From contig CANSSP010000013.1 in the NCBI GenBank assembly GCA_947649645.1, forward strand, positions 1 to 64,000: a stretch of 64,000 nucleotides of DNA, given 5' to 3'. Shown one piece after another: positions 18,818 through 49,952 of this stretch. This DNA is from an uncultured Roseburia sp. (GTDB lineage Bacteria; Bacillota; Clostridia; Lachnospirales; Lachnospiraceae). The first letter of the stretch is position 1. Each line of letters begins with the position of its first letter. Under the pieces are notes generated by a model. The model saw only the letters and a list, made by a program, of their open reading frames with translations, searched no databases and had not been told where the DNA came from. A program made the position numbers and the translations under genes.

Positions 18818-20662
18818 TTATACCGGAAACGCCACGCGCTGCACAAACAGCTCCTCAAACTCTTTGCGGCCGATTTTTTCTTTTTCCAGCAAAAGCGCCG
18901 CACAGGCATCAAGAACGTCCCTGTTTTCCATAATGATCTGTCTTGCCTTTGCGTAACACTCATCAATAATACGTTTGATTTCCTGATCAATGGAAGTCGC
19001 GACCCCTTCCCCGTAACCCCTTGTATGGGCAAGATCCCGGCCGATAAAAACTTCATTGTCGTCATCATCATAGCAGATCAGACCGATGTTCTCCGACATC
19101 CCATACCTGGTGACCATACTCTTGGCCATCTGCGTCGCCTGCTTGATATCCTGCGAGGCCCCCGTCGTGATGTCGTCAAATACCAGTTCTTCCGCCACAC
19201 GGCCGCCCAGTGACACCACTATATCCTGAAGCATTTTTCCTTTCGTATTAAACATCTCATCTTTTTCCGGCAGAGGCATCGTATATCCCGCCGCCCCTGT
19301 CCCGGTCGGAATAATGGATACCGAATAAACCGGCCCCACATCCGGCAGAAGATGAAACAGAATGGCATGGCCCGACTCGTGAAACGCCGTGATCCGCTTT
19401 TCTTTTTCCGAGATAATACGGCTCTTTTTCTCCGCACCGATCCCGACTTTCACAAAAGACCTGCGAATATCGTCCTGTATGATAAAAGCGCGATCTTCTC
19501 TGGCCGCCACTATTGCGGCCTCGTTTAAAAGATTTTCCAGATCCGCGCCGGTAAACCCTGCCGTCGTCTGCGCAATCTGCTTTAAGTCCACATCGTCACC
19601 CAGCGGTTTATTTCTCGCGTGCACCGCAAGAATCTCTTCTCGTCCGCCCACATCGGGACGCCCCACGTGCACCTTCCGGTCAAACCGTCCCGGACGCATG
19701 ATCGCAGGGTCTAATATGTCCACACGGTTCGTGGCCGCCATCACGATAATTCCCTCGTTGACGCCGAAGCCGTCCATCTCCACCAGCATCTGGTTGAGCG
19801 TCTGCTCCCGCTCGTCATGGCCGCCGCCCATTCCGGTACCGCGGCGCCTCGCCACAGCGTCGATCTCGTCGATAAATACGATACATGGCGCGTTTTTCTT
19901 TGCATCTTCAAACAGATCGCGGACACGGGACGCCCCTACGCCGACAAACATCTCGACGAAATCGGAACCCGAGATACTAAAAAACGGCACGCCCGCCTCT
20001 CCTGCAATCGCCTTGGCCAGAAGCGTCTTTCCGGTTCCGGGAGGCCCTACCAGAAGCACTCCCTTTGGAATCCTGGCGCCGAGCCTGGTATACTTCTTTG
20101 GCGCGCGCAGAAAATCTACAATTTCCACCAGTTCTTCTTTCTCTTCCTTAAGGCCGGCCACACTGGCGAACGTCACCTGCTTTACCAGCTCTTCCGTCAT
20201 CAGACGCGCACGGCTCTTTCCGAAATTCATCATCTTGCTCCCGCCGCCGGAATTGGCGGCCGCCTGATTTGTCATAATCATAAAAAAGATGAACATCGCC
20301 GCAAAAATAATCAGATACGGCAGCAGCGTTAAAAGCCAGCTCTCCGCGGGCGGATTTTCCACTGTATAATTGAAAAAATCCGCCCCCCGCATATACTCTT
20401 CAATCTCGTTTACATCACTGACCGTCAGCGTCTGCGTCTCCCCGCCCCGAAGCGTGACATAGAGATTGCCCGTGGGCATCTCACGATTCGGAACTATCCG
20501 CACCTGCGCAACCTTTCCCTCCGCAAGCGCGGCGTCAAACTGTGCCCTGGAATAAGAATTTGCCGCCGTATTTCCATCCATCCAATACCACACGCCGATC
20601 ACGGCCAGTATCAGTATCAGATATATTCCAAATCCTCTGTAACTGTTTCTCCTGTTATTCAA
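18818..20662 (-). CDS. ftsH: ATP-dependent zinc metalloprotease FtsH
   Basis: Membrane-bound AAA+ protease that degrades misfolded and regulatory proteins. From the TTG start at 20662 the 614-residue protein has TM1 (about 10-28), an extracytoplasmic domain, TM2 (about 110-132), Walker A GPPGTGKT, Walker [15 protein letters not shown], the SRH segment [20 protein letters not shown], and the zinc motif HESGH with the third ligand Asp in the [12 protein letters not shown] region. I chose TTG because AAAAGGAG stands 6-7 bases before it and it falls 13 bases after the hpt stop; the upstream open frame (to 20797) is inside hpt and reads as junk. The gene order tilS-hpt-ftsH is conserved in Firmicutes. 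Confidence 0.95.
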
Positions 20663-42265: not shown

Positions 42266-42410
42266 TTCTTATTCAGAGTGATGGAGATACATAGGATCTG
42301 TGAAGTCACGGCAACCCCTCCACGGAAGGTGCCAGCCTGAGCGAGTAAATGCTGTACGAAAATCTTTTGCGCCGCACGGCGGGATTTTGAAACAGTTCGA
42401 ACAATAAGAG
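42266..42410 (+). ncRNA. SAM-I (S-box) riboswitch
   Basis: Conserved S-box blocks are present in order: TTCTTATTCAGAGTG (P1 and kink-turn start), GGTGGAG-like TGATGGAG, the GAAGTCACGGCAACC core, CGGAAGGTGCCA, the CCTGAGCGAG block and the closing AACAATAAGA that pairs with TTCTTATT. A P4-type hairpin carries CGCCGCACGGCG. A terminator follows at 42438. SAM binding should end transcription before metK, giving feedback control. Confidence 0.95.
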
Positions 42411-42501: not shown

Positions 42502-43689
42502 ATGGAAAAAAGATTATTTACATCGGAATCAGTGACGGAAGGACATCCGGACAAAGTCTGCGACGCCATTTCAGACGCAATCTTAGACGCCTGCATGGCA
42601 GAGGACCCGATGAGCCGCGTCGCCTGCGAGACGGCCAGCTGCACCGGTTTTGTACTCGTGACAGGAGAAATCACGACCAAAGCCCGTCTGGATATCCCGG
42701 CACTTGTGCGCCAGACCGTCAGAGAGATCGGGTATGACGACGCAAAGACCGGATTTGACGGCAATACCTGCGCGGTGATGGTAGCGCTCGACCAGCAGTC
42801 GCCCGACATCGCAATGGGCGTCGACAAAGCGCTTGAAGCCAGAGAGTCCAGCCTCTCCGACGAGCAGCTTGAAGCCATCGGCGCAGGCGACCAGGGTATG
42901 ATGTTCGGCTATGCGACAAACGAGACGCCGGAACTGATGCCCTATCCGGTCTCGCTCGCACACAAACTGGCCTTACAGCTGACAAACGTGCGCAAAGATA
43001 AGACGCTGCCTTACTTAAGACCGGACGGAAAGACCCAGGTCTCCGTGGAATATGACGAAAATGGAAAACCGGTCCGCTTAGAGGCCGTCGTCCTGTCCAC
43101 ACAGCATGACGAAAATGTGACGCAGGAACAGATTCACGCAGATATCCGCAAATATGTATTTGATCCGGTCCTTCCGAAAGAGATGATCGACGAAGGGACT
43201 AAGTTTTTCATCAACCCGACCGGAAGGTTCGTCATCGGCGGACCGCACGGTGACGCCGGACTGACGGGACGCAAGATTATCGTGGATACATACGGTGGAT
43301 ATGCACGTCACGGCGGCGGTGCCTTTTCCGGAAAGGACTGCACCAAAGTAGACCGCTCTGCCGCTTACGCAGCGCGGTATGTCGCCAAGAACATTGTCGC
43401 TGCAGGACTGGCAGATAAATGTGAAATCCAGCTCTCCTACGCAATCGGCGTTGCGCAGCCGACCTCTGTGATGGCGGATACGTTCGGAACCGGCAGGCTC
43501 TCCGATGAAAAACTGGTCGAGATCATCCGAAATAATTTTGACCTCCGCCCGGCTGGTATTATTCAGATGCTGAATCTCCGCCGTCCGATTTATCGCCAGA
43601 CAGCGGCGTACGGACATTTCGGACGCACAGACTTAGATCTCCCGTGGGAAGCAGTCGACAAAGCGGACAACCTGAAAAAATATTTATAA
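42502..43689 (+). CDS. metK: S-adenosylmethionine synthetase
   Basis: Makes SAM from methionine and ATP. 395 residues; signatures [21 protein letters not shown] at the N-terminus (given in full minus one), [12 protein letters not shown] (conserved ATP-binding loop) at about residue 130, and [16 protein letters not shown] at about 270. RBS AGGAGAATGAAAG. It is controlled by the SAM-I riboswitch immediately upstream, so the end product represses its own enzyme. A strong hairpin follows the gene. Confidence 0.98.
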
Positions 43690-43800: not shown

Positions 43801-43849
43801 AACAGTATGGTAAAAATTTAACAATCTGACAAAACGGGAGGTATTTGTG

Positions 43850-45190
43850 ATGGATTATTCACAGGAATACAAACAAAAGCTTGTCTCTGCCGACGAGGCC
43901 GTAAAGCTGATCCGCTCGGGAGACTGGGTCGATTTCGGCTGGTGCGTCAACACGGTCGACGCTCTGGATAAGGCTCTGGCAAAACGCACCGACGAATTAA
44001 AGGATGTCAACCTTCGCGGTGGTATCCTGTTAAAGCCCCTGGCGGTGTTTGACCGCGAAGACGCAGGGGAGCATTTTACCTGGAACTCCTGGCATATGTC
44101 CGGCGTGGAACGCAAGCTGATAAACCGCGGCTGCGCCTACTACGCTCCCATCCGTTACTCGGAGCTGCCGCGCTACTACCGCGATTCCGAAACACCGGAC
44201 GCCGTCGCAATGTTCCAGGTTGCGCCGATGGATTCCCATGGCTACTTTAACTTCGGACCAAGTGCTTCCCATCTCGGTGCAATGTGTGAGACGGCAAAAG
44301 ATATCATCGTCGAAGTAAATGAAAACATGCCTCGCTGCCTTGGCGGTACGGAATGCGGCATACATATCTCCGATGTCACTTACATTGTAGAAGGTGACAA
44401 TCCGCCTGTCGGCGAAATGGGTGCCGGCGGCGCAGCCACGGACGTAGACAAAGCCGTCGCAAAGCTGATCGTCGAAGAAATTCCCAACGGCGCCTGCTTA
44501 CAGCTGGGAATCGGAGGCATGCCAAATGCAGTCGGCTCCCTGATCGCAGAGTCAGACTTAAAAGATCTGGGCGTTCACACCGAGATGTACGTCGATGCGT
44601 TTGTCGATATCGCACGCGCCGGCAAGATCAATGGTTCCAGAAAAAATATCGACCGTTTCCGTCAGACATACGCATTTGGAGCCGGCACGAAAAAAATGTA
44701 CGATTATATGGATGAAAACCCGGAGCTGATGAGCACACCGGTAGACTATACAAATGATATCCGTTCCATCGCCGCGCTGGACAATTTTATCTCCATCAAC
44801 AATGCGGTAGATGTCGATTTATTCGGACAGATCAATTCCGAATCCGCCGGGACCAGACATATCAGCGGGGCAGGCGGACAACTTGATTTTGTACTGGGAG
44901 CTTACCTCTCCAGAGGAGGGAAGAGCTTTATCTGCTGCTCGTCGACATTCAGGACAAAAGACGGACAGTTAAAATCCCGCATCCTCCCCACATTAAACCC
45001 GGGCTCCATCGTGACTGACACCCGGGCGAATGTCCATTACCTCGTCACCGAATACGGCAAGGTAAATTTAAAAGGACTTTCCACCTGGCAGAAAACAGAG
45101 GCCATCATTTCCGTGGCACACCCAGATTTCAGGGATGAACTCATCGCAGAAGCAGAAAAAATGCACATCTGGAGAAGAAGCAACAAATAA
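43850..45190 (+). CDS. Butyryl-CoA:acetate CoA-transferase-type enzyme (acetyl-CoA hydrolase/transferase family)
   Basis: A 446-residue family I CoA-transferase of the Cat1/But/4-hydroxybutyrate type, which moves CoA between acyl groups; in gut Lachnospiraceae the But enzyme makes butyrate from butyryl-CoA and acetate. The catalytic Glu is in [14 protein letters not shown], followed by [20 protein letters not shown], a diagnostic glycine-rich motif. [16 protein letters not shown] is the CoA-binding glycine loop. Substrate cannot be told from sequence alone: acetate/butyrate, propionate or 4-hydroxybutyrate are possible. ATG 43850 sits 8 bases after GGGAGG; GTG just before is an alternative. 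No other butyrate-pathway genes are in the window. The CsoR-like fusion gene starts one base after its stop. Confidence 0.88.
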
Positions 45191-45191
45191 T

Positions 45192-46130
45192 ATGACTCCG
45201 AGCGAAGATTATATTGTTAAGCAATTTCAAAAAATCAGAGAACGGATGGAAGCACTCAGCGACCACCAGAAAAAGCTCTGGTGCCTGCTCAGCCTGTGTC
45301 GTACAAAACAGTGCTTTCTGCTTCTGTCCGGCCTTGATATCTGCCGGGGCTTAAGCCGCTTCGACGAGCTTTTAGATGCCGTCCGGGGCGGCATCTGCCT
45401 GGCGCATTCCGACAGCATCGATGCATTCCGCAGATTCATAACGATTCTCGAGGCCGCTCTGGATGGCTGCTCCGGTATGTACTGGGACGAAGACCTGCAG
45501 GATCTGCGTGAACTGCCGCCGGAAAGGGACAGCAGCCACGCCGACCTTGGAGAAGGGTTTTCCCCTTTTATGTTTTTTGATCTGATTGCAAGCATCGTAG
45601 AGTTTCTGGCTCACTTCTCTGACCTGGACAGTCTGGGCGGCCGGAAGAATCTGTGCTGTGCCGAAATCGTTCTGGGAGCAACCTTTGAAACGTATTTTTA
45701 TCAGAAATATCAGACAGAAAATCTCGCCGATGTAAAAGAAGTCACGGTTGAGGTCCAGCGCGTGTGGAATGATTATCATTATATCCTTTCCAATCCGAGA
45801 CAATCCGAGATCGACCGTAAAATACAGGAGTACAAAAACATCTGCGTCTGGAAACAAAAACATCTGCATCACCATGAAAACGCCAAAGCAGTCATAAACC
45901 GCATGAACCGCGCGATCGGGCACATGGAAGCAGTCCGGAACATGATCGAACACGACCGCCCCTGCAGCGAAGTACTGATTCAGATCGCCGCCGTCCGCTC
46001 CGCTGTCAACAACATCGGCAAAATTATCCTTGAAGACTATGTCAGCCGCTGTGTGGCGGATGCCATCGAAACCGGAGATGATCTCAGCCTTCAGGAGCTG
46101 AACGACGCCATCAGCAAATTTGTAAAATAA
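45192..46130 (+). CDS. CsoR-family regulator domain fused to a long N-terminal helical domain
   Basis: A 312-residue protein. Residues about 226-312 match the CsoR/RcnR/FrmR family (DUF156) closely: HHHENAKAVINRMNRAIGH, then VRNMIEHDRPCSEVLIQIAAV, and ILEDYVSRCVADAIETG, ending LQELNDAISKFVK. In CsoR, Cu(I) is bound by a Cys, a His and a Cys; here the matching residues are Cys258, Tyr283 and Cys287, so the His is lost while both Cys remain, as in thiol or persulfide sensors more than Cu sensors. Residues 1-225 are helical, rich in Cys and acidic residues, and unrecognised. Family members are usually 85-120 residues, so this is a fusion. It starts one base after the CoA-transferase stop and is followed by a hairpin. 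What it binds and senses is unknown. Confidence 0.82.
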   Translation: MTPSEDYIVKQFQKIRERMEALSDHQKKLWCLLSLCRTKQCFLLLSGLDICRGLSRFDELLDAVRGGICLAHSDSIDAFRRFITILEAALDGCSGMYWDEDLQDLRELPPERDSSHADLGEGFSPFMFFDLIASIVEFLAHFSDLDSLGGRKNLCCAEIVLGATFETYFYQKYQTENLADVKEVTVEVQRVWNDYHYILSNPRQSEIDRKIQEYKNICVWKQKHLHHHENAKAVINRMNRAIGHMEAVRNMIEHDRPCSEVLIQIAAVRSAVNNIGKIILEDYVSRCVADAIETGDDLSLQELNDAISKFVK

Positions 46131-46169: not shown

Positions 46170-47393
46170 CTATATATCGTCTGCCATTTCATTCTGAATC
46201 CCGTTCTCATCCGATAACCGCCAGCAGCATACTTTATTTTTCCCTGTCCGCTTTGCCTCGTAGAGAGCCTTGTCCGCCCTCTCGAAGAAATCGCTCGCCG
46301 TGCGGTATTTTTGATTGTGCTCCGCCACCCCGATGCTCAGCGTAAAATGAAGCGTCTTTTTATCCTCTGTCTTAAACTGTGTATCTGCAAACCGCCTCCG
46401 GATGCGCTCTGCATGCTGCGCCGCATCACGCAGGCTCTTTCCCGGAAGAATTACGGAAAATTCCTCTCCGCCATAGCGTGCACAGATATCGCCCCCGTTG
46501 CTCACTCCCCGGATTACCTCCCCTACCTGTCGGATTACTTCATCGCCAAAAGCATGCCCATATGTATCATTGACTTTTTTAAAATTATCAATATCCGCAA
46601 CGATAATCGAAAACGCTTCTTTCGTGCCCGCAAACTGCTGCATCTGTTCGTCCAGCGCCTCATAAAACGCCTCATGATTTAAAAGCTGTGTCAGCGAATC
46701 CCGGCTGCCCTGCTCCCCAAGTATATTGGCCGTCTTCATCACTTCCAGCTCAAATCGCACCATGACGTAAAACAAAAGCACAATAACAATGGCATTCGTA
46801 AATGCTTCCAGCCCGGGATTCGGACTTACGTCCGAAATATGCATCTCCCATTGATCCGTAACAACCGTTGTGGCAGAATGACACCTCTGCCTGATAAACG
46901 GAATATGTATCATCTCCGCATACAGCAGTATGACGAGACTGGCCGCCACCTGAATGTACACCAGACTTTTTTTTCTGTAAATCGGCGCTATTATCATAGG
47001 AAAGAACACTACAATCATCATATGTGCGACATCGCCGTAACTGCACAGACAGATGGCCATATATACATTCAGAAGAATAATTACCGTGACGGCTACTGTC
47101 GTGGAAGTACAGTGCATGGCAAGATTTCCCAGAAAAAAACGCATATATAATATCACAGCTAAAAGTCCCGACATCGGAATAAGAGCATAATCGATAAATG
47201 AACCGGGCGGCCCCTGTTTCCCTGTGACACCGTAAACAACGAGCAGGATAAGCCCTGCGACCAGCGTCCACGTATATGTCCCATACAAGGGCTTAAGCAC
47301 GACACGCTTCCATTCCGCAATTTCTGCTTCCCGAATTTTTTTCTTCTTTTTTGGCATTTCCAATTTCCTTCCCGGAACTTTCCCAGACTCCAT
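46170..47393 (-). CDS. Membrane diguanylate cyclase (GGDEF)
   Basis: Makes cyclic di-GMP from two GTP. 407 residues: a basic N-terminus, six hydrophobic segments at about 35-225 (a membrane sensor module without a large outside loop), and a GGDEF domain at about 240-395. The active site reads RYGGEEFSVILPG (GGEEF form); metal Asp in IIVADIDNFKKVND; DSLTQLLNHEAFYEAL starts the domain. The inhibitory I-site RxxD is not obvious. Two ATGs are usable: 47393 (GGAAGTGGAA before it) and 47357 (MPKKKKKIRE, after GGAAGGAAATTGG). The next large genes encode surface proteins, and c-di-GMP often controls such genes, but I found no c-di-GMP riboswitch here. Confidence 0.93.
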   Translation of the reverse strand: MESGKVPGRKLEMPKKKKKIREAEIAEWKRVVLKPLYGTYTWTLVAGLILLVVYGVTGKQGPPGSFIDYALIPMSGLLAVILYMRFFLGNLAMHCTSTTVAVTVIILLNVYMAICLCSYGDVAHMMIVVFFPMIIAPIYRKKSLVYIQVAASLVILLYAEMIHIPFIRQRCHSATTVVTDQWEMHISDVSPNPGLEAFTNAIVIVLLFYVMVRFELEVMKTANILGEQGSRDSLTQLLNHEAFYEALDEQMQQFAGTKEAFSIIVADIDNFKKVNDTYGHAFGDEVIRQVGEVIRGVSNGGDICARYGGEEFSVILPGKSLRDAAQHAERIRRRFADTQFKTEDKKTLHFTLSIGVAEHNQKYRTASDFFERADKALYEAKRTGKNKVCCWRLSDENGIQNEMADDI

Positions 47394-47714: not shown

Positions 47715-49952
47715 ATGAAAGAAAAACAAAAAAACTTCAGACATAAAATACAGTCTTTCACACAGAAACTGTCATCCATAAATAATAAACTGCCGTGGAA
47801 GAAACCGCACAGCGAAAAATATCAGAAACGGATCGCCTTTCTCAATCGATATTCTCTGGCATTCCATTTTCTGCTTGCCTGCCTTCTGATTTTTGTGATC
47901 GAGGTAATTTCCAGACGCAGTTTTGTGGGCGCGGCGGCTTTTCTGGGCAGCCATACGCTCGCTTACCTCTACAATGCCTTTATTATTTTTGCGTCGCTTT
48001 CATTTGTCTATCTGTCGCGCTTCCGCGCGCAGCTGCGCATTCTCATCAGCGGCGTCTGGATCTTTTTAGGAACGGTGAACGGCCTGATTCTGTCAAACCG
48101 TGTCACCCCCTTCAGCTACACGGACTTAAAATGTATTTCTGATCTGCTTGCGATGCAGAATACAACTTATTTTACCGCGGAGGAGGGCATGATCGCCGTG
48201 GCTGCCATCGCCGCTTTCTTCCTGTTTTTATTTTACCTCTTTGCAAAGGGGCCCCGCTACCAGGGAAAACGGCACGCCGTACTCTGCCCGTTCTCGATCG
48301 CCGCTCTCTTTCTGATCGGCGTTCCGATCACAACGCAGGCGGCGCAGAGCTCCAATATTATCGCGTCCTACTTCTCCAATATCGCCCAGGGATATTCGGA
48401 TTACGGATTTGTCTACGGCTTCTCGACCAGCGTGATCGGCCGTGGCATGGATAAACCGGCGGACTACTCCCCCGAAACCATCGATGCGGTTCAGGAGCTT
48501 GTGCGTTCTGCAGCCCCCGAAACACCCGTTTCCACGGACCGGAAGCCAAATATTATCTGTGTCCTTTTAGAATCCTTTCTGGATCCCTATGAGGTGAATT
48601 TTCTGAACATGTCGCAGGATCCGATTCCGAATTTTCACCGGCTGGAGCGTGAATTTTCGAGCGGCTATCTGACGGTCCCGGTTGTCGGGGCCGGCACGGC
48701 AAATACTGAATTTGAGATTTTAACCGGAATGAGCATGCAGTATTTCGGCACGGGAGAGTATCCTTACAAAACGATTTTAAAACAGACTGACTGTGAAAGT
48801 ATCGCGTCCGATCTGTCGGGAATCGGTTATGGTACGCATGTCGTACATAACAATACCGCTACTTTTTACAGCCGCAACAATGCATTTTCCATGATGGGTT
48901 TTGACACCTTTACCAGCAAGGAACTGATGAATATCACCGACTACACGCCAATCGGAAGCTGGCCTACCGATGATGTCCTGGTCGAGGAAACAATGAAGTC
49001 CATGGATTCGACCAGGGATACGCCCGATTTTGTGTACACCATCACAGTCGAAGGACATGGCGATTATCCAGGCGAAAAAGTTCTGATGAATCCTGCCGTC
49101 AGCGTTTCCGGCGCACCCAGTGAGACGTCCAACAATCAGTGGGAGTATTACGTCAATATGCTCCATGAAGTCGACGACTTTATCGGGGATCTCATCGCGG
49201 CCGCAGACAAACGCGGGGAAGACACCATAATCGTCTTTTTCGGCGATCACCTTCCGACCCTGGGCTTATCGGACGCAGATATGAAATCCGGCGATATTTT
49301 TAAGACAAAATACATCACCTGGAACAACATGGGTCTTGAGAAAAATGACGCCGACCTGGCCGCGTATCAGCTTCTCGCACACGTTACCGGCCAGGCTGGC
49401 ATCCACGAAGGCACGATTTTTAATTATCATCAGACACAGGCAGATTCGCAGACCTATTATTCCGGCCTCGAAAACCTGCAGTATGATCTGCTGTACGGAA
49501 AACGCTACGCCTACAACGGCGAAGACCCGTATCCGGCCTCGGATCTTACCATGGACGTGGAAGATGTAACACTCTCTTCCCTCCGCAAAAATAAAATGAG
49601 CCATGTGCTTGCCGTATATGGTTCCAATTTTACCAAAAATACAAAAATCTTTATTAACGGAAATAAAGTGTCCACGACATACCGGACACCCTCCCTGCTT
49701 CTGACCAGCCTGGACAATGTAAAGAACGGCGATCGTGTTGCCGTGAATGTTTTAGGCTCTAAAAATCTCCTGCTCCGAAGCGGCGTCGGCGAAATCATTT
49801 ACGAAGATCCCGATGTCATCCGGGACACACAGGCCCCTGCGGAACCGGACGGCAGCGCGTTTTTAAACGACAGCGCCGCTCCCCGGGATAACACGTTTCC
49901 GGAAGCAGAAAACAATGATATCAGCGTCCCGGAAGACAGGCATTCCAGATAG
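47715..49952 (+). CDS. LTA-synthase-family sulfatase with an extra C-terminal IPT/TIG-like domain
   Basis: A 745-residue membrane enzyme of the LtaS type, which transfers glycerol phosphate (or another phospholipid head group) to a surface polymer or sugar. Five hydrophobic segments at about 47-66, 73-92, 97-118, 152-175 and 190-210, then an extracellular sulfatase-fold domain. Metal/catalytic residues: Glu in ICVLLESFLDPYE, nucleophile Thr in GAGTANTEFEILTG, Asp-His in VFFGDHLPTLG. After about residue 610 there is a beta-rich extension (HVLAVYGSNFTKNTKIFING, then VKNGDRVAVNVLG) like an IPT/TIG Ig-like fold, and a disordered acidic tail. That extension is not part of known LtaS. RBS AGGAGGAATCG. 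Its own promoter and terminator make it a single-gene unit. Whether it makes true lipoteichoic acid is unknown. Confidence 0.88.
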   Translation: MKEKQKNFRHKIQSFTQKLSSINNKLPWKKPHSEKYQKRIAFLNRYSLAFHFLLACLLIFVIEVISRRSFVGAAAFLGSHTLAYLYNAFIIFASLSFVYLSRFRAQLRILISGVWIFLGTVNGLILSNRVTPFSYTDLKCISDLLAMQNTTYFTAEEGMIAVAAIAAFFLFLFYLFAKGPRYQGKRHAVLCPFSIAALFLIGVPITTQAAQSSNIIASYFSNIAQGYSDYGFVYGFSTSVIGRGMDKPADYSPETIDAVQELVRSAAPETPVSTDRKPNIICVLLESFLDPYEVNFLNMSQDPIPNFHRLEREFSSGYLTVPVVGAGTANTEFEILTGMSMQYFGTGEYPYKTILKQTDCESIASDLSGIGYGTHVVHNNTATFYSRNNAFSMMGFDTFTSKELMNITDYTPIGSWPTDDVLVEETMKSMDSTRDTPDFVYTITVEGHGDYPGEKVLMNPAVSVSGAPSETSNNQWEYYVNMLHEVDDFIGDLIAAADKRGEDTIIVFFGDHLPTLGLSDADMKSGDIFKTKYITWNNMGLEKNDADLAAYQLLAHVTGQAGIHEGTIFNYHQTQADSQTYYSGLENLQYDLLYGKRYAYNGEDPYPASDLTMDVEDVTLSSLRKNKMSHVLAVYGSNFTKNTKIFINGNKVSTTYRTPSLLLTSLDNVKNGDRVAVNVLGSKNLLLRSGVGEIIYEDPDVIRDTQAPAEPDGSAFLNDSAAPRDNTFPEAENNDISVPEDRHSR

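Follow-up and report, generated by a model that had tools for sequence, protein, structure and literature searches.

A CsoR-family domain fused to a cysteine-rich domain in Roseburia: a putative nickel-uptake regulator with altered sensing

INTRODUCTION

CsoR-family proteins are as a rule portrayed as sensors of one domain, with a ligand set that matches what they detect. A gene in the stretch of DNA analysed here (64000 nucleotides of a contig from an uncultured Roseburia sp., hereafter the window) raises the question of what such a regulator senses, and with which of its parts, once both features have changed. Its CsoR-family domain is preceded in the same frame by 222 extra residues, a departure from the small single-domain size that is a usual CsoR/RcnR trait (and one that stands outside the definition of the PF02583 profile), and a ligand position usually held by histidine is occupied by tyrosine.

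RESULTS AND DISCUSSION

The fusion protein and its two domains

The fusion gene is one uninterrupted frame of 312 amino acids (Table 1). An earlier, sequence-only reading of the locus had placed a CsoR-family domain at the C-terminal end of the product, and this was confirmed by Pfam PF02583 (Trns_repr_metal), which matches over profile positions 3–78 of 78 with 85 bits (E 4.8e-24; cut-off 22.8). InrS (5fmn, 71 bits) is a better sequence match to this domain among solved structures than CsoR (4m1p, 51 bits). In alignments the ligand positions W, X, Y and Z are occupied by His226, Cys258, Tyr283 and Cys287 respectively, His226 being aligned with InrS His21; the roles of these positions are taken from parts of two published studies (PMC7055735 and PMC5016687). 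The proposed replacement of the ligand histidine by Tyr283, with Cys258 and Cys287 retained, is borne out by this alignment, and Cys258 is the invariant X-position cysteine of DUF156, called conserved in all DUF156 proteins in an excerpt of PMC5016687. A frameshift joining two separate genes can be rejected as an alternative, as the same two-domain frame was found in L021/G084 (91% identical) and L002/G015 (62%).

Residues 1–225 had been called unrecognised, and indeed gave no match above chance in Pfam, NCBIfam, PHROGs or PDB sequences; searches of the same libraries with the added domain and its homologues, both as single sequences and as an alignment, returned chance-level matches only. The domain is cysteine-rich, as had also been claimed, with nine cysteine residues in 222. 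AlphaFold gave a mean pLDDT of 44 with one sequence and 46 with six sequences, and in the six-sequence model the block means were 59–87 in the CsoR part and at most 47 in the added domain. The profile searches and structure prediction suggested for this region have thus left it with neither a library match nor a fold, and only in the low-confidence models does it look helical.

Table 1 Features of the fusion locus and of the loci compared with it (positions refer to the window unless a locus is named)
Feature	Position	Strand	Basis
SAM riboswitch, ahead of S-adenosylmethionine synthetase gene at 42502	42266..42351	+	RF00162, 45.7 bits (gathering score 44.4)
Butyryl-CoA:acetate CoA-transferase gene, 1 base upstream of fusion gene	43847..45190	+	TIGR03948, 925 bits
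Gene for the 312-aa fusion of Cys-rich added domain and CsoR-family (PF02583) domain	45192..46130 (ATG to end of stop)	+	ORF, profile matches
Added N-terminal domain, residues 1–222	45192..45857	+	Stand-alone homologues in other Lachnospiraceae
His-rich joint KHLHHHENA, residues 223–231	45858..45884	+	Longer His-rich tail at same place in single-domain relatives
CsoR/RcnR-family domain, residues 232–309	45885..46118	+	Pfam 85 bits; InrS 5fmn best solved match
Codon of Cys258, X ligand (Ser in G015 fusion)	45963..45965	+	Alignment
Codon of Tyr283, Y ligand position	46038..46040	+	Alignment; His in 43/43 distinct relatives without this fusion
Codon of Cys287, Z ligand	46050..46052	+	Alignment
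GGDEF gene	46170..47393	-	
Large frame, called lta	47715..49952	+	By eye
TPR-like stretch plus added domain, Lachnospiraceae family	L026:2518-3396	-	By eye
TPR-like stretch plus added domain	L036:1465-2391	+	By eye
TPR-like stretch plus added domain	L037:1450-2346	+	By eye
TPR-like stretch plus added domain	L053, L054		By eye
Transglutaminase-like gene	L026:999-2378	+	By eye
Transglutaminase-like gene	L056:2101-2949	-	By eye
GGDEF-like gene	L040:5467-6837	+	
Methyltransferase–CsoR fusion	L061:489-1403	+	Methyltransf_25-type domain
Copper-type P-type ATPase	L091:320-3445	-	

Distribution of the fusion and of the added domain

The fusion was found in three of the 62 genomes of the genus, namely the window's own (G000), G084 (61% complete; L021 and G084, which agree in length and coordinates, are apparently the same contig and were counted as one genome) and G015. 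At E < 1e-6 the added domain itself was present in four of the 62, i.e. the three fusions and one stand-alone protein (G033), with four further, weak matches up to E 0.1. A profile of the domain detected it in eight of 397 genomes of a family sample and two of 196 of an order sample, counts in which the window genome figures twice and one other genome (G107) is common to both samples. Outside the three fusions it was seen only as a separate protein in scattered Lachnospiraceae, and five such loci (L026, L036, L037, L053 and L054) have a TPR-like stretch of ~80 residues ahead of it, as read by eye and without a profile match. The short flanks of the stand-alone homologues bear no sign of metal, which speaks against the nickel-uptake reading set out below.

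Other genes were noted beside the domain. By eye, a transglutaminase-like gene adjoins two stand-alone homologues (L026 and L056). In L040 a GGDEF-like gene follows the stand-alone homologue at a distance of 28 bases, and the gene behind the homologue of G361 resembles a hybrid histidine kinase, not GGDEF. In the window a GGDEF gene is convergent with the fusion gene; the same arrangement occurs in all three fusion genomes and is kept even where the CoA-transferase is absent.

The sequence-only reading had held that CsoR-family proteins have one domain. This is usual, with the exception of a methyltransferase–CsoR fusion in two other genomes (L061 in G930 and L062 in G709). Like the window protein, L061 and L062 have an N-terminal partner that is joined at the His-rich tail to a protein close to this subfamily, in their case via an HHHHH joint; unlike it, they have a Methyltransf_25-type partner (tested for L061) and a complete Cys-His-Cys. 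The other eight of the ten long-frame CsoR loci examined from the phylum search, among the matches listed, were judged by eye to be chance open frames, and at least two further listed frames of similar length (G904, 164; G931, 157) lie outside those ten. The class sample contained 34 subfamily-like CsoR matches (E 1e-24 or better) in 32 of 391 genomes, in open frames of 91–200 amino acids with the exception of the window's 352. A single-domain member in G071 lies in a 292-codon open frame, which we read as a chance overlap with a gene on the opposite strand.

Single-domain relatives and a motif at nickel and cobalt transport genes

In a tree of the CsoR domain (43 rows) the three fusions form one clade (99/95) with a long branch (0.4) at its base, nested in a Roseburia group of single-domain proteins (100/94), the exact place within that group being weak (84/31). 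These relatives have Cys-His-Cys together with a His at the W position, and also His-rich N-terminal tails, the place of which is taken in the fusion by the added domain. The CsoR half thus derives from a single-domain, His-tailed protein. Many Roseburia loci of single-domain csoR also adjoin, on either strand, a relative of the large frame that follows in the window.

Fourteen relatives from other genera were examined for their neighbours, mostly named by eye. Four stand beside cbiMQO-type genes (L070, L079, L080 and L081), three beside nik/opp-type ABC genes (L071, L074 and L075), two beside complex-I/hydrogenase-like genes (L076 and L078), one beside corrinoid-methyltransferase genes and one beside methyltransferase and FecCD-type transport genes; the remaining loci, L068, L069 and L077, have no nickel/cobalt-, hydrogenase- or methyltransferase-type neighbour. 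Promoters at five loci of these other-genera relatives have a 19-base motif in common, and the final pattern, TAWCCCCNNNNNRGGCTTG, was shaped by these five class loci and two sites of the window's genome. Searched exactly, it occurs at 19 sites in 16 of the 62 genus genomes, compared with one site for the reversed-pattern control. Downstream of 17 of the 19 lies a gene for CbiM (11), a NikA-like (four) or a NikC-like protein (two); one further site is cut by a contig end and one (L097) does not fit.

The motif also travels with the regulator. Counting motif genomes whatever lies downstream, it was found in 14 of the 24 genus genomes with a strong subfamily match (E 4e-39 or better) and in two of the 38 others (p 5e-6, Fisher test), the latter two being 80–81% complete. 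The association persists without the window genome (13/23, p 1e-5) and without all three fusions (11/21, p 6e-5). That ten of the 24 subfamily-bearing genomes lack an exact motif counts against the nickel-uptake reading. In the class sample, 20 sites (control, one site) were distributed over 14 of 20 positives, one of 11 genomes with middling CsoR scores, which the main test left out, and two of 49 without a match; the 49 are those examined out of 359 such genomes, and 29 of them were taken as class-sample members by their handle numbers. Omitting the five genomes that had been the source of the motif gave 9/15 (p 8e-6), and adding the middling genomes to the positives or to the negatives gave 15/31 (p 4e-6) and 3/60 (p 1e-8) respectively; in all of these tests related genomes (e.g. 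G1133 and G1188) are counted separately. The class sites are less uniform: of the 20, eight have a good or a weak match to the CbiM or NikA references, three match the methyltransferase of L072 and nine none of these. That several class sites are not followed by a recognisable nickel transporter gene, and that the motif turns up in some genomes lacking a strong subfamily match, likewise counts against the nickel-uptake reading. Methyltransferase genes were seen directly behind the motif in L072, L112 and L127.

The position of the motif relative to the promoter was assessed on 33 sites, after five that are not transporter-like (L097, L116, L121, L124 and L125) had been set aside and seven duplicate loci dropped; the 33 still include five (L114, L120, L123, L128 and L129) for which none of the references (CbiM, NikA, NikC and methyltransferase) gave a match, one that is cut off (L109) and two that match NikA weakly (L074 and L113). 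A −10-like hexamer (four or more matches to TATAAT) stands 17 bp from TTGNNN in 19 of the 33, compared with at most 7 of 33 at any other spacing from 11 to 23, and in none of the five set-aside sites. This spacing places the TTG of the motif as a predicted −35 start, and the motif palindrome would then be centred ~42 bases before the predicted transcription start. Activators use sites centred at about this distance, and from its geometry the palindrome would occupy an activator-type position. Rfam gave no family at gathering score on six motif loci.

The window's genome has two copies of the motif, one before a NikA/NikB-like pair (L088) and one before NikC/D/E-like genes (L089). With TIGR02294 (nickel_nikA), the cut-off of which is 393 bits, the NikA-like protein of L088 reaches only 187, and its substrate is uncertain. 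The three fusion genomes keep two, two and one sites, four of which precede NikA/NikC-like genes and one of which runs off its contig. Each of these genomes has one subfamily match, and in the window's genome the fusion is the only member of the subfamily that was found. Neither the motif nor CsoR-type palindromes gave a pattern match near the fusion gene or upstream of the CoA-transferase gene, so that no autoregulation is visible; the sole match within the window lies at 19014.

Among the titles and abstract openings listed from an open-access library, none describes the subfamily, the motif or the fusion. A study of the CsoR meta-regulon in gut Firmicutes (PMC4938975) names, in the parts consulted, CsoR and CopA as the regulon, with the canonical CsoR motif, and the words ‘nickel’ and ‘cobalt’ are absent from its main text. 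According to a 2009 survey (PMC2667541), less than half of the NikABCDE-bearing organisms also have NikR.

Ligand loss, selection and the site of sensing

The reading that we favour, at a probability of about one half, is that the fusion protein is a regulator of nickel (or cobalt) uptake with altered sensing, comparable with cyanobacterial InrS, and that the added domain has taken over its sensing in whole or in part. The ancestor would have been a CsoR-family protein of one domain that had a His tail and a His-Cys-His-Cys site of the InrS type. Proteins of the CsoR/RcnR family are tetramers with pseudo-palindromic operators containing G/C tracts. The CsoR domain of the fusion protein would still bind such G/C-tract operators, placed next to the −35 box of genes for nickel-type ABC transporters at other sites in the genome; these candidate operators are defined by their pattern and by co-occurrence. 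The effector-free form would most probably help transcription and release the DNA upon effector binding, as is reported for InrS at the nik operon of cyanobacteria. A cysteine-rich domain would have replaced the His tail in the fusion lineage and one ligand of the old site would have been lost, so that sensing would have shifted to the new domain at least in part. The sequences themselves show the architecture and its recurrence, the ligand loss, the common cysteine residues and the motif with its association, while the DNA binding, activator mode, sensing role and ligand of the fusion protein are inferred. Its signal could be a metal, thiol state or another cue.

Among 46 distinct CsoR rows (fetched loci with tblastn E 1e-4 or better to the window's domain), Cys-His-Cys is present in all 43 without this fusion, the two methyltransferase fusions included. 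The window protein and L021 have Cys-Tyr-Cys and G015 has Ser-His-Cys, which indicates one fusion followed by two different ligand losses. These data also bear on an unlikely alternative, namely that the old site still works with altered ligands (His226, Cys258 and Cys287 in the window protein; the W-position His, His283 and Cys287 in G015). The added domain might supply a further ligand, or the site might be used for a different metal, and the role of that domain would be confined to adjusting affinity or oligomer state. Each fusion has indeed lost exactly one of the four InrS-type ligands and kept three, the joint retains HLHHHEN or RLHHQEN, and a comparison of the window with L021 shows the CsoR domain to be strongly constrained. 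However, the cysteine missing from G015 is the one that PMC5016687 calls conserved throughout DUF156, and two different losses in three proteins fit a relaxed demand on the site better than one common new site.

The shift of sensing to the added domain is consistent with the residues that set this domain apart in the fusions. Cysteine residues 31, 36, 41, 51, 93, 155, 156 and 218 are common to all three fusions, a conservation that represents two independent lineages as two of the three are close, and seven of these eight are absent from eight aligned stand-alone homologues; the sole exception is position 51, which is Cys in four of the seven homologues having a residue there. His141 and His196 are also common to the three fusions. 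The earlier suggestion that the domain might be a second sensor agrees with this pattern. In addition, the comparison of the window with L021 gave dN/dS values of 0.01 for the CsoR domain (one non-synonymous and 21 synonymous differences), 0.13 for the added domain and 0.017 for the CoA-transferase, and such low values indicate that the fusion is a working gene; for the added domain against G015 the values were 0.16–0.18, with dS near saturation. A permanently active or decaying regulator, which has lost sensing, is merely stabilised by the added domain and leaves its targets expressed without metal feedback, would account for ligand loss without a proven replacement and for the long branch at the base of the fusion clade. 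We hold it to be just as unlikely as a surviving altered site, as the added domain is under purifying selection and keeps its eight cysteine residues across 57% identity, which a mere scaffold would not need.

Less probable still is a CstR-like dithiol switch, in which Cys258 and Cys287, without the histidine, sense persulfide or oxidised thiols: the window protein keeps a pair of the kind through which TTHA1953 works (PMC10318464, in the portion seen), but Ser at position 258 in G015 means that the pair is not common to the fusions, no sulfur-handling gene was seen by eye beside the fusion genes, and the motif sits at nickel-type transporters.

We return to a nickel-uptake regulator with relocated sensing, whose history would be of interest because a single fusion was followed by two separate and different breaks in the ligand set, although selection on the CsoR half stayed strong and the candidate target sites were kept. 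Taken as a whole, we would propose only tentatively that this is a sensor transplant, in which a CsoR-type nickel-uptake regulator keeps its DNA-binding core and operators, yields its metal site and takes its signal from an acquired cysteine-rich domain, and that the subfamily of single-domain, His-tailed proteins controls nickel/cobalt import in many Clostridia, a role so far unrecognised. For the import of nickel and cobalt by gut clostridia, the motif points to a candidate regulator that can be tested.

The CoA-transferase neighbour

The fusion gene does lie one base behind a CoA-transferase gene, as had been stated, and a link to acyl-CoA metabolism had been suggested on this ground. By-eye reading of the draft genomes, many of them incomplete, placed the CoA-transferase directly upstream on the same strand in ten of the 24 genus genomes with a strong subfamily match (eight unfused, two fusions), about 1.9–2.6 kb upstream in five, and farther away, on another contig or not found in nine. 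As it stands directly upstream of unfused csoR, the neighbourhood is older than the fusion. Recurrence of the arrangement, proposed as a check, was partial: the fusion recurs in G084 and G015, and the pair is present in G000 and L021/G084 but not in G015, where the CoA-transferase is on contig C10 and the fusion on C6. The suggested metabolic link is thus not supported, nickel or cobalt uptake being favoured by gene context and promoter motif, and the CoA-transferase is a neighbour that lies outside the inferred function of the fusion protein. A link of the regulator to the butyryl-CoA:acetate CoA-transferase, with acyl-CoA or butyrate sensed via the added domain, is very improbable in spite of the one-base spacing in the window, the same order in L021 and a likely co-transcription, given that the two genes were paired before the fusion arose and are separated in G015, that no acyl-CoA-binding profile in the libraries searched matches the added domain, and that the CsoR-type patterns tried have no match upstream of the CoA-transferase. 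Farther upstream in the window, a SAM riboswitch was found ahead of an S-adenosylmethionine synthetase gene.

Comparison with known systems

The copper sensor CsoR has the same PF02583 domain with Cys at X and Z, and differs in having His where the window protein has Tyr. Among the window's frames near the fusion no copper genes were seen by eye; the other CsoR-type protein of the window's genome adjoins a copA-like ATPase (L091). This ATPase is of the copper P-type and has a CopZ-like stretch at its C-terminal end.

CstR and TTHA1953, the latter placed by its authors nearest to CstR and, according to part of the same report (PMC10318464), working through two cysteine residues, resemble the window protein in having two Cys and no His at Y. 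The Cys258/Cys287 pair of the window and L021 is, however, absent from their sister fusion in G015, which lacks one of the two, and sulfur-handling genes were not seen by eye among the frames at the fusion loci.

InrS, the nickel sensor of Synechocystis, is the best match among solved structures, and the single-domain relatives have its Cys-His-Cys together with the W-position His. In the window protein this His-Cys-His-Cys set is incomplete, as the Y-position His is missing, and whereas InrS is a single-domain protein (107 residues in 5fmn) the window protein has an extra domain of 222 residues. InrS also represses the exporter gene nrsD. In the portion of PMC7055735 drawn on here, it binds upstream of nik and enhances the import genes, and nickel binding disfavours its binding to DNA. 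This mode of action would have the right sign for the regulator proposed in the present study, with the effector-free protein helping the uptake genes and the loaded protein leaving them.
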